A stretch of 64,000 nt of DNA, taken from contig NZ_MVDD01000002.1 of NCBI RefSeq assembly GCF_002843315.1, positions 310,001-374,000 of the forward strand, written 5' to 3'. A program made the position numbers and the translations under genes. Below the pieces are notes generated by a model, which did no database searches, was not told where the DNA came from, and saw only the letters and a list, made by a program, of their open reading frames with translations. Each line of letters starts with the position of its first letter. Position 1 is the stretch's first letter. Shown here piece by piece: positions 7,594 to 31,536 of this stretch. The stretch comes from Labilibaculum filiforme. Its GTDB lineage: Bacteria > Bacteroidota > Bacteroidia > Bacteroidales > Marinifilaceae.

Positions 7594-7995
7594 GGGGCTG
7601 ACGTGGATTTTGACAGCATGATGAATTAGTATGTAAGCATGTCGAGCGTTGTTATTCCAGCTCGTAAATATCGGATATCAAACTTTTTAATTGGCGAAAA
7701 TAACTACGCTCTTGCTGCTTAATCGAATAAAGTAGATTAATGCTTCATCACCGCTCTAGGAGCGGAGACGAGACGTCCAGCTCATGGTCCCACCTTGTTC
7801 CGGTGAGTAATTGGATGCTATCAATTCAGGGTTAGTCTACTTCACGCTTTGGGGAGTGGGCGAAATTAAGAAGATAAGATAAAGACTCGGGTGTGCTTTC
7901 CCTAACTTTGTACGAAAACCAATAAATCACTACACATGTAGAAAGCTTATTGATCGCGTGTTTGGACCAGGGTTCGATTCCCTGCAGCTCCACCA
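7594..7995 (+). ncRNA. ssrA: Transfer-messenger RNA (tmRNA)
   Basis: This RNA rescues stalled ribosomes and tags incomplete proteins for degradation. The 5' end GGGGCUGA pairs with the 3' acceptor-stem half, which ends CAGCUCCACCA (CCA encoded, 7993-7995). A T-arm with GGUUCGAUUCC is at 7971-7981. The tag frame runs 7693-7722 and reads GENNYALAA then TAA, the tag known from Bacteroides, with the resume codon GGC. The length is 402 nt. The 3' terminal 17 nt lie inside the left att copy of the adjacent island, so that part is probably element-derived but functional. Confidence 0.97.
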
Positions 7996-16031: not shown

Positions 16032-18890
16032 TTATTTTATTTGCTTGAATTCCAGACCATTCAGCCAAGTTTGAGCATCCTTTTTATTGGTTTCAAACTT
16101 GATAACAACTGGACTAATGCCATCACTTTTAATGTAATTAGTAACAGATATTGGTGAACGCTCTCCGATGTCCTTACCATCCATAATTTGAACAGATGCA
16201 TCATCCGATACGTACTCGAAAACTCCATTCCCGTCATTCAATTCTACTTTCATAGTATATGGAAATAGCTTCTGTACATCCTGAAAAGAGTGATGATAGC
16301 TTTTTAACTGGTACTCGCCTTTCGGCAGATTATTTATTGTTAGAGTCAATTGGCCTTTTTCAACAAAAACACCATCACATGCCATGAAAGCTAAATCACC
16401 CAAGATAGTATAAGTCCCTTTTCTCCAATTCAAGTCCGACTCAGCCTTTATCACGAAAGTGCAATTCCCAGCTTTAAACTCACATTTCGTACTGTCTCCT
16501 CCATTTACAATGTTCCATCCAAATTGTTCCAACTGATCTTCCGTTTGAATATCTGTTTTATAAGTTGGATAATCAAAAATTGGTTTCGCGCTTGCCAACA
16601 ATTCATCCGCTTGGTAAGCTTCTGTTTTTAGAGTCAGAGTTTCCGACTTCAGCTTACCTGAGATCGCATTTATTTTAATTTCTCCAGCCTCTTTAGTACC
16701 TTTTAGATATACTGTAGCAACCCCATGATAGGTTTGCATATTTTGCACAAAGTGTTTTTGCTTGTATAAAATAGAACCAGCACCTTTGGTTTCAAAATGA
16801 ATTTTTAAATCAGCATCAACAAGCGTTTCTCCATTTTTATCCACCACATAAGCACGAATCATCTTTAAATCTGAACCTCCAGCTTTTAAAAGTCTATTCG
16901 GATTATCGACTGCTAATTTTAGTGCATAGGCTTCTGTAATTTTAGTTCGTGAATGTGTGGCAATCACCTTACCAAAGCTTAAAGCTTTTGCGGTAAGCTT
17001 TTCATTCTTCCAATTGTAGTTGAAGGTAAATGATGGATGAGCGTTCCATAATCTTAGTGGGTCATTATCAGCTTTCTGAATAGCAACTAGCTTATCATCA
17101 GCATAAAGAGCCACTTCTGTAGCATTACTGTAAATATGAATTTTCCGGTTCTTATAAACAGACTCATCTGCAATATGAATGTATGGAGTCGCTGTCAACT
17201 CTGATTTGTACCAATAGTAAGCAGGACGAGGAATTCTATAAGCTGTTTGCAAGCCATATTCAGTAATAAAATCGTAGGTTTCGGGTTTGGGCTGTAAGCG
17301 GTTGTAATCTGCTCCTACCCAAAGCAATGCTCCAATATTATTTTTACGCTTTTTATACCTCGATATGTGATGTTGCTGAGCGAGACCATTGTGAGAATAT
17401 CCATGCTCCATTACCATACAAAAATCGCCTTCCGGAAAATCCGTTCTGCGGTAATCCATCGTTGCATAAATATCCGTTACTCCTGCATTCTTTATGCCAT
17501 TCCATGGTGCTGAAGCACTTGCAGTTAAACGAAAAGGATCTTCTTCCTTAGCTGCATTATTTAATTGCGGAACAGGTCCACGGTGATTAATACCAGCTCC
17601 CCAAATTATTATAGAAGGATGATTTCTATGATTGCGCACCATAATGCGAAGCGATTGCTCCAACTTGTCCATCCACTCTCCTTCTTTCCACCTAATCCAA
17701 GTAGAAGGCTCTTCGTAAAGTAAGATCCCTAACTCATCGCAAGCTTCGATAAAAGAATTATCCTGAGGATAATGAGACAAACGAATCGCATTTATTCCGG
17801 CTTGCTTATAGCGAAGTGCGGCTTCGTAATGCATGGAATTAGGCACAGCATCGCCAATATGAGGATAAGACTGATGACGATTTACCCCAGTCATAAAAAA
17901 TGGCTTTCCATTCAAGAGCAAACCCTCACCATCAACCAATTCTACAGATCGGAATCCAAATTTATTTTCCACAAAATCAACCGCTTTATTATCCATATAA
18001 ATGACTGATACCACTCGATATAAATAGGGATCATCAGTCGACCACAGACGGTAATTGTCTACAATCTCGGATGTTTGACGGAATGTTTTACTCTGTCCTG
18101 CTTTAAGCTTAGAGTTTGAGTTAAGCTTTTTAACTAAATATCCATCAGCATCTAATAGCATGGTTTCAATTCTACAATCTACCTGCTTATCGTATTCATT
18201 AACAACTGTTGTTTTTACAGATACGGTTCCGTTATTTTTTTTAACGCCAGGCGTTGTGATATGCACACCAGCATCAAATGCTTCCCAATTATAATTTACA
18301 TGAAGCTTGTTGGTCTTCACCAAATAAACATCCCGGTAAATTCCTCCCCACTTTAAATAGTCTGTTTCGTATGGATCAGGAGAAATAGTAGGATTAAAAC
18401 TGTGGTCAGCCAAAATGGCAATGGTATTTTCTTTTCCTGAATTTACAAAATCTGTAATATCAAAATGGTGAGGCACATATCCATTTACCTCAAATCGTCC
18501 AACAAATTTTCCGTTTACATATAAGTCTGTTGCACTATGAACTCCTTCAAACTCGATAAAAGCTTTTTCATCTTTTTGAATAGTGATCATTAACTTTTTT
18601 CGATACCAGTTAAAATCACGCAAGTAATTTTTCTGCTCCCAACGATCACTAACACTATCCAACCAAATAGATACTGGATCGGGGTTGTGAGGTAAACAAA
18701 CCTCTTCCCATTTACTATCATCAAAATCTGTAGCAGTAGGTTTTTCTAATTTGGACATTTTGGAGAACTTCCAATCGAGGTTGATGTTTTGTTTTGTTCG
18801 GTTCTTTTTTGGATAAGCCTCAAGAGAGTTAGCCATGGATAATGTTCCAAAGGCCAATAATAAACCTATAAGTAAAACTTTAATTTTCAT
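16032..18890 (-). CDS. GH2-family protein with non-canonical acid/base site and C-terminal malectin-like domain
   Basis: This 952-residue protein has a signal peptide (about 1-20). GH2 sugar-binding domain (about 35-195), Ig-like domain (about 200-315) and TIM barrel (about 320-590) are in order, followed by Ig-like modules and a C-terminal malectin-like module (about 775-952). The barrel has the conserved FFMTGVNRHQ and AIRLSHYPQ. The segment HPSIIIWGAGINHRG (424-438) has Asn435 where GH2 enzymes carry the acid/base Glu of the NE pair. A nucleophile candidate, Glu495 (VMEHGYS), is kept. It may use another acid or be binding-only. It is the first gene of operon 1, and its start codon is the end of the leader repeat at 18888. 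Confidence 0.85.
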   Translation of the reverse strand: MKIKVLLIGLLLAFGTLSMANSLEAYPKKNRTKQNINLDWKFSKMSKLEKPTATDFDDSKWEEVCLPHNPDPVSIWLDSVSDRWEQKNYLRDFNWYRKKLMITIQKDEKAFIEFEGVHSATDLYVNGKFVGRFEVNGYVPHHFDITDFVNSGKENTIAILADHSFNPTISPDPYETDYLKWGGIYRDVYLVKTNKLHVNYNWEAFDAGVHITTPGVKKNNGTVSVKTTVVNEYDKQVDCRIETMLLDADGYLVKKLNSNSKLKAGQSKTFRQTSEIVDNYRLWSTDDPYLYRVVSVIYMDNKAVDFVENKFGFRSVELVDGEGLLLNGKPFFMTGVNRHQSYPHIGDAVPNSMHYEAALRYKQAGINAIRLSHYPQDNSFIEACDELGILLYEEPSTWIRWKEGEWMDKLEQSLRIMVRNHRNHPSIIIWGAGINHRGPVPQLNNAAKEEDPFRLTASASAPWNGIKNAGVTDIYATMDYRRTDFPEGDFCMVMEHGYSHNGLAQQHHISRYKKRKNNIGALLWVGADYNRLQPKPETYDFITEYGLQTAYRIPRPAYYWYKSELTATPYIHIADESVYKNRKIHIYSNATEVALYADDKLVAIQKADNDPLRLWNAHPSFTFNYNWKNEKLTAKALSFGKVIATHSRTKITEAYALKLAVDNPNRLLKAGGSDLKMIRAYVVDKNGETLVDADLKIHFETKGAGSILYKQKHFVQNMQTYHGVATVYLKGTKEAGEIKINAISGKLKSETLTLKTEAYQADELLASAKPIFDYPTYKTDIQTEDQLEQFGWNIVNGGDSTKCEFKAGNCTFVIKAESDLNWRKGTYTILGDLAFMACDGVFVEKGQLTLTINNLPKGEYQLKSYHHSFQDVQKLFPYTMKVELNDGNGVFEYVSDDASVQIMDGKDIGERSPISVTNYIKSDGISPVVIKFETNKKDAQTWLNGLEFKQIK

Positions 18891-19072
18891 ATGATTATTA
18901 TTTTATATTTTTGCCATATGGAACTTACCATATAATCATCTCCCTGTGTGTATAAAGCTTTATACATGGACTTTTCATATGATTATTATTTGTTTTCTAG
19001 TTGCCATATGGAACTTACCATGTTGGGATAATAATTTCCCTTTATGTCAAAATTGCTTTGTCATGGACGTTT
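18888..19072 (-). repeat. Two copies of the ~95-bp leader repeat before operon 1
   Basis: Copies span 18888-18975 (88 bp) and 18976-19072 (97 bp). They share with the 31027-31406 array the core CCATATGGAACTTACCAT (plus strand), TCCCT, CATGGAC and TTTCATATGATTAT. The left edge of the first copy (CAT, 18888-18890) is the GH2 start codon. The copies lie entirely in the transcript leader of operon 1 if the promoter is upstream of them. Confidence 0.85.
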
Positions 19073-19167
19073 CATGATGAGATTTTTACTGGGTTGCTAT
19101 TGCTTACTACAAGAATACAGAGAATGTATCATCAAAAGGGAAACATATTCCTATTATTTTGTTCCGA

Positions 19168-27621: not shown

Positions 27622-30600
27622 TTATTTTGTTTTTAAAAGAATAAATTTTGCTTCCCAATGCTCAATTAATAAAGGAGAAGTTAATTGTTGCAATTCTTCA
27701 CCGATTGAATTTACTTCAAACACCGATTTTACATTCGAATTTTGTAGTAGTTTGGTAATGTCTAAAATAGCATGATCTCCCTCTGTCTCACGCAAGTGCA
27801 ATAATATTCCATCACCATCAGGAGTTGGTCGGGAACTAACCAATAAGAGGTTGTTAACCGTATTTAAATCAAGAAATGATTTTGCTTCTTGCTCAGCTAC
27901 GGAGTTAAATTTCCCTGCATTTGTTCGCGTAATCAGTGGTACTCTATTCCCCCAACCAAACTTTGTTGCGAAAGAATTTGAATTATCGGAAGACGAAGTG
28001 ATTTGGTATTTCCAATTTAATTCTCCAGACTGACTGGCTTTAAAGTTGGTCGTCCAATAATTGTTTAGTACCCAAGAATAAATATGTCCGTTGCCAGGTT
28101 GCTTTTTATAATAATAACGACCTGTGTTAATATCGCCAAACTGAACCAGTGGAATATCATTACTGCTAAATACAATTTGAGAATTATTTGATTTTACTGT
28201 TGCAAAGTTTTGTATGGTATTCCAATCTGAAGCGGATCCACCCAATTGATTTTTCCCTGGCTGAACAACTCCACCCTGAACTTCAAATGCTAATTGGCCA
28301 TCATTATCATTCGTAAATGGAAAAGCTATATACAAACCTTCAGGATCTGTAATAGACAGCTTTCTCATATTATACAACAACTCTATCTCTTTCTTATAGT
28401 TATACAATCGAATTTCAATATTTACACCTGAAGCATCTGCACAGTCTGGAATTTGTGCCTTGCATTTGATACTGTTCCAAATTTCACCATTCTTCCTCTC
28501 AACTATTTTAAAATCAGAAAACTGTATCGTTTCCTTTTTTATAGGTTTATAGACTGTATCTCGAAGCGCATTGGTTAGCCTTTCCAAATCCTCTCTATTT
28601 TCAAGCAATTCATAAATAAAACTTCCTAATTTATAAGTGCTTGCATCATCTATTAACTCTCTGTTTAGTTCTTTATCGAAAATGCTGGCTAAACCATTAT
28701 TATTTTCATCAATTTCTATTTTATAGTAATCATTTTCAATAGTGTTAGAAATTGGCATATCAGTAGATTTACGTATATTGGGTTTGTCAGAAACATCAAT
28801 TTTATAGGTAGCATATCCCATTGCAGGAACGTCTTTCACCCATAATGCCCAATAACTTCCTTCCCCTCGGCTCTTAATAATTTGAGCGGGAATTCTATTA
28901 CCGCTCTCATCTACAATACGATACGATTTGTCAAGTGGTAAAATATCATGATCGATAAATGCTTCTGCTACACCAGATCGATTCCAATTTAAAGTATTAA
29001 AAACAGTAACAGATGGCTCTTTAGGTATTTTAACGTATGGTTGAACTAAACCGATCGCTTTTTCTCTAAGTAAATTTGCCTGTTGATTAGCCATCCATAC
29101 ATAGGAAGATTTTTGACTCCACTGATCTTTAGAATTTTTACAATCAGGATCAGATATACTTTCCGATGCACCAAAAGTATGTTCACTGTATAACAAAAGA
29201 TTGTCATAACAGTTTCTAATTTCATCATGAATCTGTTTGGGTATAGCACCTCCAGAAGCTTGAGTCATAGAAAACAGTCCCATTGTTGCTAACATTTGCG
29301 AGTAGGTTATTCTCGATACTTTAGTTTCCTTCATTGCAGAACCAAAACCATCTGTCCACCAATCAGGCCAAGCTTCTCGCTTCGTTTCAATTTCACCAGA
29401 ATGATTCTCATCAACATACGCCATAAGTTCACTTGCCAACGACAATTTAAGTTTTGGCCATTCATATTTTTCGTTCCATTCTTTTACAATATCACAAGCT
29501 TTAGTGGATGGTGGCGAATTATCGGTAGTATATCCTGAAAATTGAAAAGCTACTCGATCCATAGGATATTCTTTGGATTCTAATTTAGCAAGGTATTTTG
29601 ATAAGTTATTTCTAAATACATCTATTCTACCTGCAGTAAGACTAAGTGCATTACCATGCATATAATGCTCGCTTCTGTATGCTAAAAGACGCTTACCTGA
29701 AGGTGATTCCCACCAAAATGAGGTCGGTTTATCAAAAGGCAATCGGGCTCGATGCGCATGCACACCCATTGAAACATATTTTACTCCTGTATTTTGATAC
29801 ATATCGGCCATACACCAACCAATACCATTCACATCATTTTGCATAGCTGTGGTTACATCTATGCCCAACTCTTTAAATTTTTTCAAACTTGCCAATTGAA
29901 TTGCTAAGGCTGTTTCATCTACAATTTCAGCAAAATTTAAAAACATTCCTGCTACCTCAATTCGCCCCTCTTTAATCCTTTTTATCAAACGATCAACCTG
30001 CTGTTTTGGGCGACTATTTATGTATTCTCGAACTGTCCAGGTTACTTCGCATGTCCAACGAAACTGAGATTCTTTTGGGAAATGATCTGTCTGGTCACAA
30101 AAATCCAAAGCGTCATCGATATACCTTAAATGCTCTGCTAATATTTCAGATTGTTGTCTGGTATAACCAATATCGGTATGAGAGTGTTGAACCAGATAAA
30201 CCGTCCATTCTTTAACCGGCTTCAACTCTATCACCTTCTCCTGCACGATTTTCCCTGTTTCAATTTTTGTATTAACTGTTGTGGCTTTATTTACTTTTGG
30301 AACCAGAAAATCAATCTCATTTAAGCCTGTTTTTAGCATAACTTGTTTCGAATCGTTATCAACAGAAATTGTTACATTTTCAGGTTGAGCCAGATGAACA
30401 CAATTAAAGCGTACCATATTGTAAAGCTTTCCATTTTCCTTTTTCACGGTATTTAGTTGCTCGGTTGAAAAATCACTTGCAAGAGAACGTTTAAAGGTCA
30501 TGTACCAAGCGGTGCTATTGTTATTCACACCGTCTACTTTTATTTTAATAGGCTTACCGGGAATTACCATTTTAGTTGGCAAAGTAAGCACGGCATATCC

Positions 30601-31029
30601 CATTTGATCTTGATTGCTATCAATCATCGACTGATAAAAATTTAATTCTACACCCTTTTCGCCTATTACCTTCCAATTCTTATGAATATTAGAGATTGGA
30701 TTCGAAAATGTAAGTAAAACCTGATCATTAACAAAAAGCTCAAAATTCTGTGGTTGAGTGCTTACATCTATTCCATACAACCAAATAAAAGATATCGTTT
30801 TCTCCTTGTAAGATTCAGGAATTACAGCCGTTTCCCACTCCATAAAACCAACCTCCTTATTCGCTCTTGTTAAGTAGCATTGGTCGTTGTATAAATAAGG
30901 TGAAGGATAAGCAAAATCTACTCCTGCTACCTCTTTATCGTATCCAGGTAGGTATTCATTTTGCGAAAATGAATAATTACTGAAACTCACTAATAATATC
31001 GTTAAAGCCCAATACATCAAGTATTTCAT
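27622..31029 (-). CDS. GH38 alpha-mannosidase-like protein
   Basis: This 1,135-residue protein has a signal peptide (about 1-22). An N-terminal beta-rich region (about 25-270) precedes the GH38 domain, with zinc motif QHSHTDIGYT (281-290; His284, Asp286) and nucleophile Asp399 in AMQNDVNG. Long C-terminal beta-domains follow, without the extra modules of its neighbour. It is the first gene of operon 2. Its start codon (CAT, 31027-31029) is the last three bases of the 95-bp leader repeat. It is a distant paralogue of the 23106 gene, judging by shared segments such as SQFxWT and the GH38 core. Confidence 0.88.
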   Translation of the reverse strand: MKYLMYWALTILLVSFSNYSFSQNEYLPGYDKEVAGVDFAYPSPYLYNDQCYLTRANKEVGFMEWETAVIPESYKEKTISFIWLYGIDVSTQPQNFELFVNDQVLLTFSNPISNIHKNWKVIGEKGVELNFYQSMIDSNQDQMGYAVLTLPTKMVIPGKPIKIKVDGVNNNSTAWYMTFKRSLASDFSTEQLNTVKKENGKLYNMVRFNCVHLAQPENVTISVDNDSKQVMLKTGLNEIDFLVPKVNKATTVNTKIETGKIVQEKVIELKPVKEWTVYLVQHSHTDIGYTRQQSEILAEHLRYIDDALDFCDQTDHFPKESQFRWTCEVTWTVREYINSRPKQQVDRLIKRIKEGRIEVAGMFLNFAEIVDETALAIQLASLKKFKELGIDVTTAMQNDVNGIGWCMADMYQNTGVKYVSMGVHAHRARLPFDKPTSFWWESPSGKRLLAYRSEHYMHGNALSLTAGRIDVFRNNLSKYLAKLESKEYPMDRVAFQFSGYTTDNSPPSTKACDIVKEWNEKYEWPKLKLSLASELMAYVDENHSGEIETKREAWPDWWTDGFGSAMKETKVSRITYSQMLATMGLFSMTQASGGAIPKQIHDEIRNCYDNLLLYSEHTFGASESISDPDCKNSKDQWSQKSSYVWMANQQANLLREKAIGLVQPYVKIPKEPSVTVFNTLNWNRSGVAEAFIDHDILPLDKSYRIVDESGNRIPAQIIKSRGEGSYWALWVKDVPAMGYATYKIDVSDKPNIRKSTDMPISNTIENDYYKIEIDENNNGLASIFDKELNRELIDDASTYKLGSFIYELLENREDLERLTNALRDTVYKPIKKETIQFSDFKIVERKNGEIWNSIKCKAQIPDCADASGVNIEIRLYNYKKEIELLYNMRKLSITDPEGLYIAFPFTNDNDGQLAFEVQGGVVQPGKNQLGGSASDWNTIQNFATVKSNNSQIVFSSNDIPLVQFGDINTGRYYYKKQPGNGHIYSWVLNNYWTTNFKASQSGELNWKYQITSSSDNSNSFATKFGWGNRVPLITRTNAGKFNSVAEQEAKSFLDLNTVNNLLLVSSRPTPDGDGILLHLRETEGDHAILDITKLLQNSNVKSVFEVNSIGEELQQLTSPLLIEHWEAKFILLKTK

Positions 31030-31406
31030 ATGATTATAATTTTAAGTTTTTGCCATATGGAACTTACCATGTTGGGATAATCATTTCCCTGTGTGTCAAA
31101 ACACCCTTGTCATGGACGTTTCATATGATTATAATTTTAAGTTTTTGCCATATGGAACTTACCATGCTGGGATAATCATCTCCCTGTGTGTAAAAACACC
31201 CTTGTCATGGACGTTTCATATGATTATAATTTTAAGTTTTTGCCATATGGAACTTACCATGCTGGGATAATCATCTCCCTGTGTGTAAAAACACCCTTGT
31301 CATGGACGTTTCATATGATTATAATTTTAAGTTTTTGCCATATGGAACTTACCATGCTGGGATAATCATCTCCCTGTGTGTCAAAATCGCTTTGGCATGG
31401 ACGTTT
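31027..31406 (-). repeat. Four tandem 95-bp leader repeats before operon 2
   Basis: The unit start CAT recurs at 31027, 31122, 31217, 31312 and, as a truncated fifth start, 31407, an exact 95-bp period. Copies differ by a few bases (GTTGGG or GCTGGG; TCATTTCCC or TCATCTCCC; the outermost ends TCGCTTTGGCATGG instead of CACCCTTGTCATGG). Read in the transcript direction each unit begins AAACGTCCATGACAAGG and ends ATAATCATATG. The same unit occurs before operon 1. The unit is not a multiple of three, so it is not a coding tandem repeat. Confidence 0.95.
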
Positions 31407-31536
31407 CATATTCCTATTTTTATTAAATTACCGTTTAAAACAACACAAACCATCCAATTAAATTCCTCTTATAAACGCACTCTTTATAGCTACTCTCCAA
31501 TTAAATATAAATTGAATTCTATTTCCTCATTAAATT

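Follow-up and report, generated by a model that had tools for sequence, protein, structure and literature searches.

The locus raises the question of why the same short repeat stands directly before the first genes of two glycan operons, and whether it marks a control element that they share. The window, meaning the whole 64-kb stretch of Labilibaculum filiforme DNA analysed here, holds two arrays of this repeat, both on the minus strand. Array 1 (31027-31406), defined by sequence, TRF, BLAST, and a covariance model, has four head-to-tail 95-bp units (31027-31121, 31122-31216, 31217-31311, and 31312-31406), of which units 2 and 3 are identical. TRF places it at 31024-31411 with a period of 95, 96% matches, and a score of 713. 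Array 2 (18888-19072), defined by sequence and the model, consists of two diverged units of 88 and 97 bp, with model matches at 18885-18972 and 18973-19075. The host genes, identified from the open reading frame list and Pfam, encode a GH38 glycoside hydrolase for array 1 (27622-31029, minus strand) and a GH2 glycoside hydrolase for array 2 (16032-18890, minus strand). Both arrays close with CAT, which on the minus strand reads as the ATG start codon of these two reading frames. The initial annotation had described the exact period of the first array, the divergence of the second, and the ending of both at start codons, and all of this is borne out. So is its statement that no other gene in the window has the unit: the model found no third array in the 64 kb, and two extra plus-strand rows (E 0.3-0.4) overlap an array already found. 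The window also contains a tmRNA gene (7594-7995, plus strand) with the tag peptide GENNYALAA.

The repeat extends far beyond these two operons. One unit used as a BLASTN query gave 80 matches in the Labilibaculum genome. A covariance model built from 36 diverse units gave at least 116 matches there and at least 66 and 89 in two complete sister genomes; these counts, taken at E up to 0.1, are lower bounds because scoring in each genome was limited to 150 of the several thousand candidates from a first look. In a phylum sample examined under strict filters, 39 of 392 Bacteroidota genomes (the Labilibaculum genome counted) had a model match, and these fall in 24 of 179 genera and in 11 families. 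A degenerate pattern recovered at least 94 loci in named records. Among the matches listed, they belong to Labilibaculum, Saccharicrinis, Natronoflexus, Pedobacter, Daejeonella, and Paludibacter, and to MAGs of Prevotellaceae, Prolixibacteraceae, Saprospiraceae, Cyclobacteriaceae, Flavobacteriales, and others. Distant members keep mainly ATGAAA, a variable hairpin, TT[CA]CATNNN, an A-rich linker, and nnnATGAAA. As read from the unit sequences, sequence types are genome-specific, with copies alike inside one genome and unlike across genomes. Plasmid and phage collections gave no match to one Labilibaculum unit, and viral contigs gave none to one pattern. A longer autonomous version would yield shortened model matches, and none was seen among the 123 model rows over the 94 listed named loci; 122 rows span the full model, and the sole exception is cut by the end of its locus. 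Two assemblies have unusual arrangements. The MAG McBI.38 (L172) has five same-orientation model matches within about 2.4 kb, possibly one per gene of an operon. In the UBA6680 MAG (L113, L116, L125, L130, L159, and L163), several contigs end inside a unit, and some of these ends have a second, overlapping unit in inverted orientation, reflecting assembly breaks or a foldback form.

We looked up 18 downstream genes in seven sister genomes and read 50 rows. The site is empty at 32 orthologous starts of 13 genes, 28 of which begin with ATGAAA, three with ATGAAG, and one with ATGCAA. Seven rows carry a unit, four recognised by script and three (L323, L331, and L349) by the model. Six rows for the L042 gene were dropped because they had been placed on a neighbouring paralogue; the true gene has a unit in two of these six loci (L325 and L328). 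Five rows were not assigned, namely L338, L320 (model E 0.92 and 0.37), and L318, L321, and L330, which are similar to L320. Two pairs of sites give exact junctions. In the first, the filled site reads ...aaaaaagaaagat ATG, 193 bp, ATGAAAGAAGG, and the empty site reads ...aaaaaagaaaaat ATGAAAGAAGG. In the second, the filled site reads ...aaattaagct ATG, 97 bp, ATGAAAAAAACC, and the empty site reads ...aataattaagct ATGAAAAAAACA. These exact junctions, found where the leader is conserved, indicate that the unit was inserted straight before ATGAAA and that the host coding sequence was kept. The L040 gene has units before it in three species, of CATATG, CACATG, and CAGATG types; the three types at one gene suggest, from sequence comparison, repeated independent insertion. 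Other insertions are common to sister species. Loci of two genomes of the genus match named Labilibaculum records exactly across both 400-base flanks (L073 with L171, L077 with L146).

The initial annotation had proposed a shared control element marking two linked operons. Such an operon-specific element is ruled out, since the same unit precedes many genes genome-wide and is missing at many orthologous starts in sister species. Together with the genome-specific sequence types, this dispersal and absence are the behaviour of a mobile repeat. The window units are members of a short, structured, and apparently mobile repeat family of Bacteroidota, which lies just before start codons. A regulatory effect on the genes behind it is possible.

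The junctions were examined in 41 arrays, drawn from the best 80 BLAST matches plus array 2 of the window and lying in 40 stretches, with weaker copies left out. In unit sense, the left flank ends with ATG in 38 of the 41 and the right flank begins with AAA in 37. The junction form is ATG/AAACG at the left and ATG/AAA at the right (...ATG/AAACGTCC......CATATG/AAA...), and the unit itself begins AAACG.. and ends ..CATATG or ..CAGATG. The view that ATG bounds the unit and ties it to start codons agrees with these counts, and only its wording needs correction: the event is better put as insertion directly 5' of ATGAAA, which is also present at the left end. The genome-wide scatter that had been named as counting against a shared control element is real; the lack of a start-codon link, named with it, is not what we found, and that link is strong. 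All arrays examined run in gene sense, and the host genes of the 41 are diverse. Arrays of one, two, three, and four units number 14, 15, 9, and 3, so that 27 of 41 are tandem.

The terminal ATG opens an ORF of at least 60 codons in 30 of the 41 arrays; in 33, an ORF of this size begins no more than 20 nt away. At the named loci (matches listed), with five arrays near contig ends set aside, an ORF lies within 20 nt for 59 of 86 arrays, and by eye about a dozen of the 27 misses precede a further unit. ATGAAA is the commonest gene start in Bacteroidota, and AAA is the second codon of 78 of 456 sampled ORFs, more than any other codon. The background was taken from 0.64 Mb of two sister genomes rather than of the Labilibaculum genome itself: 115 of 253 ATGAAA hexamers outside ORFs there have such an ORF, against 33 of 41 arrays (p=5e-6). 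An ATGAAA target combined with loss of intragenic insertions therefore explains the placement in part, not wholly.

A covariance search on the collected units, which the initial annotation had proposed, revealed two covarying helices. P1, located by fold and covariation at 31061-31120 (minus strand) in the gene-proximal unit, is a hairpin with the foot AAC/GTT, a variable stem, and a conserved inner loop containing CACACAGGG..ATGATTAT. Its stem variants are compensated (CTCCAT/ATGGAG, ACCC/GGGT, CCTGCTTT/AAAGCAGG, and others). The arms of 44 non-redundant units pair at 4.73 of their 8 inner positions, compared with 2.82 when arms were re-dealt (maximum 3.34 of 1000). P3 joins TTCCATNNN to the right end nnnATGAAA, including the host start codon. 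On the minus strand of the gene-proximal unit, the GH38 start codon forms the right end nnnATG and is paired in P3 (31027-31029; sequence, fold, and pair counts), and the guide-like internal sequence TTCCATATG lies at 31054-31062 (sequence and covariation). The sequence at 31030-31053 (minus strand) holds the guide's pairing partner (31030-31032) and an A-rich linker, now the initiation region of the host gene. TTCCATATG complements CATATGAAA at the right end with one C.A, and its TTCCAT complements the ATGAAA target. The pairing of TTCCATNNN with nnnATGAAA covers nine positions, and its one C.A is a G.T wobble on the opposite strand; by eye, the mismatch types in this pairing are about equal, favouring neither strand as the structured one.

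P3 (CATNNN with nnnATG) is perfect in 150 of 161 distinct units, which were collected with a pattern that fixed CCAT and the last G, so that conservation of those letters is partly selected. The triplets across these units are ATG/CAT (97), CTG/CAG (52), and GTG/CAC (1). In the 25 unfiltered units of the non-redundant set, P3 is perfect in 22 (shuffled mean 15.7, maximum 20 of 1000). The other 19 of the 44 come from the phylum sample, where at least 2 of 3 guide letters were required to pair, and CTT/AAG and CAG/CTG pairs also occur among them. The pairing of a guide beside a hairpin with the end and target motif, which is the mark of IS200/IS605, is thus present in both sets (150/161; 22/25). 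The whole-structure covariation score is 0.126 against 0.044 for shuffles, with none of 500 reaching it; taken alone, the pairs-with-double-change measure is unexceptional (231 of 500). Compared with shuffled sequences, three distant units are much better folded (z -4.4, -4.4, and -6.4); the window unit is not (z 0.08), yet the same helices appear. Rfam, searched for a covariance match to a known RNA or riboswitch, gave none at gathering in the window and only snoRNA noise at E<=10, which agrees with the earlier impression that the unit is not a known riboswitch. Read by eye, the units contain no inverted pair that would serve as the terminal inverted repeats of a MITE of a DDE transposon, and the 5' GT[AG]G foot of REP/RAYT repeats is absent from the unit sequences.

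Our main reading, to which we give a probability of roughly 55%, is that the unit is a non-autonomous mobile repeat of about 85-110 bp that inserts 5' of ATGAAA as single-stranded DNA directed by a guide. Its basis in sequence comparison is the dispersal, the exact junctions, the empty sites, the tandem arrays, and the two covarying helices. The element would move as single-stranded DNA, probably guided by an internal sequence as in IS200/IS605. P1 would be the recognition structure, and TTCCATNNN next to it the putative guide, which would pair with nnnATGAAA at the right end and whose TTCCAT would also let it pair with a target ATGAAA. Complementarity of the guide to ATGAAA would send copies to start codons. 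The ATGAAA at the left end of an inserted copy would present a fresh target and thereby let tandem arrays grow; local duplication through recombination would also fit the arrays, and units 2 and 3 of array 1 are identical. The host gene would keep its coding sequence intact and gain an A-rich initiation context. The mobiliser would act in trans, with a Y1 (HUH) transposase as the leading guess. The broader proposal is tentative, and we hold it at slightly less than an even chance: that across the phylum these are self-guided mobile elements whose nine-base guide targets start codons, leaving coding sequences intact, providing a new initiation region, and building arrays at the 5' end of host genes. 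In the literature searched, mostly outside subscription papers, we found no account of a start-codon-targeted repeat.

In IS200/IS605 elements, a guide adjoining a hairpin picks the cleavage sites and can be retargeted (PMC6006769, PMC8266576). Like IS608, the model element with a Y1 TnpA, the unit has a hairpin and an adjacent guide complementary to the cleavage or target site, no long terminal inverted repeats were seen in it, and it inserts precisely by a short fixed motif. By analogy, the guide pairing may be homologous to the IS608 guide. In contrast, the unit has no transposase gene, is about 95 bp long, uses one hairpin for both ends, and pairs at up to nine positions where IS608 uses tetranucleotides. 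Its orientation relative to replication also misfits the simplest strand model. The IS608-like geometry, with the guide 5' of the hairpin, is found on the strand opposite the gene; with that strand as lagging template, head-on genes are predicted. Observed instead is a co-directional bias, with 83 of 116 unit sites against 255 of 445 genes running with replication (p=0.0055) in the complete genomes G003 and G007, where 13 of 129 sites near the origin or terminus were left out, both points having been located by sampling 20 stretches in each genome. Two accounts would fit: activity of the gene-sense strand, on which the guide is 3' of the hairpin, or an effect of expression or selection.

The alternative of an RNA control element that acts in cis like a riboswitch, thermometer, or attenuator and is held before genes by selection has P3 pairing the start codon and the P1 loop binding a ligand or protein. 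It draws on the start codon lying inside a covarying helix, the conserved inner loop sequence, the enrichment at gene starts above the ATGAAA background, and the co-directional bias. We consider it unlikely, because the host genes are diverse, the unit is missing at 32 ortholog starts within the genus, 27 of 41 arrays are tandem, sequence types are genome-specific, and an Rfam match is absent. The predicted pairing of the AUG is also alike with the unit and with the native leader (0.56 against 0.52, n=38), which speaks against general sequestration of the start codon. The linker has A at -6, -12, and -13 in 41 of 41 Labilibaculum arrays, compared with 0.55, 0.61, and 0.53 of native left flanks, and never has A at -3, compared with 0.45. 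In PMC6847099, A at -6, -12, and -13, and also at -3, is reported as favourable to initiation in Flavobacterium johnsoniae. These calculations give no reason to expect a strong effect of the unit on its host gene.

We likewise doubt that the unit is a REP-like repeat spread by a RAYT, such as TnpA-Y1 subclass 2.6. PMC6006769 describes this subclass (RAYT group 5) as mostly confined to Bacteroidetes, with 'atypical secondary structures' on its flanks that are of non-GTAG type and recur elsewhere in the genome. Compared by description only, the unit resembles these structures in its Bacteroidetes hosts, its lack of GTAG, and its dispersed copies, and may be related to them; many of the 22 genomes searched that carry the unit also have RAYT-like genes with the motifs NHxH and YIxNNP. 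However, the flanks of twelve RAYT-like genes hold other repeats or none, never the unit. The six Y1 loci of the Labilibaculum genome carry no unit, and in 70 other loci fetched around Y1 matches, some of which proved to be without a Y1 gene, no unit abuts a transposase gene. The model over these 76 loci gave six rows at E<=0.01, in five places, all at a distance from the transposase. A neighbouring RAYT/Y1 gene as mobiliser was thus not found in the Labilibaculum genome or in 22 named unit-bearing genomes. Y1 genes co-occur weakly with the unit: 32 of the 39 genomes that carry the unit have them, as do 235 of the 353 that lack it (p=0.069), and G281, although rich in units, gave no Y1 match. 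One Y1 transposase gene in the Labilibaculum genome (L099, C13 near 69304; DHxH / NQxxHH type) has short GTAG-containing repeats of its own on its flanks (ccgtaggtgcgat...), and these have no relation to the unit.

Like REPs of the REPtron (REP/RAYT) type, the unit is a short, dispersed, non-autonomous hairpin repeat that occurs in tandem; unlike them, it has no GTAG foot, is not beside the RAYT genes examined, sits at start codons, and has gene-sense orientation in every array examined. Its working would be that of a hairpin element with a guide, yet it lacks the GTAG foot and the RAYT neighbour that define REPs, and no IS200/IS605 transposase could be tied to it. CGTC-tagged REPs are described in PMC3733652 as short palindromic repeats without a dedicated transposase, with Bacteroidetes among their hosts. 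The Labilibaculum unit has ACGTCC near its left end, but CGTC is lost in distant members. The same text gives mainly head-to-head dimers for these REPs, whereas the unit lies head-to-tail before genes.

A kinship with IscB/IsrB (HEARO) elements, members of the IS200/IS605 superfamily whose target-adjacent motif is NTGA, seems to us quite improbable. DtIsrB recognises NTGA including ATGA, according to PMC9581776, and ATGA follows both ends of the unit at its insertion site. Nevertheless, the unit is much smaller, has no ORF, and has no Rfam HEARO match, and RRXRR (PF14239) is found in 0 of 38 unit-bearing genomes, although likewise in 0 of 14 control genomes. Least credible of all is a translated leader, with a short ORF running from the left ATG to a stop that overlaps the right ATGA, so that ribosomes restart on the host gene. 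In its favour, a stop lies within 12 nt of the right ATG in 14 of 44 non-redundant units (shuffled mean 3.5, maximum 10 of 200), an excess partly built in because the shuffle destroys the fixed TAA of the linker. Against it, the other 30 are without such a stop and unit lengths fall in all three frame classes (11, 18, and 15), so that a leader peptide is rejected as a general reading. In some 95-bp variants, for example 31217-31311, an ORF of about 30 codons starts at the left ATG and ends on the right ATGA.

That two carbohydrate operons have a leader repeat in common does not, taken alone, show that they are regulated together. The placement at start codons could be due to the guide, to single-stranded DNA at genes, or solely to selection, and these origins can now be tested against one another. 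If the guide-directed mobile repeat is the right reading, the unit would be a natural element whose internal guide sets both its own end and its target. As a repeat homing to start codons, it would keep supplying many Bacteroidota genes with new 5' leaders.
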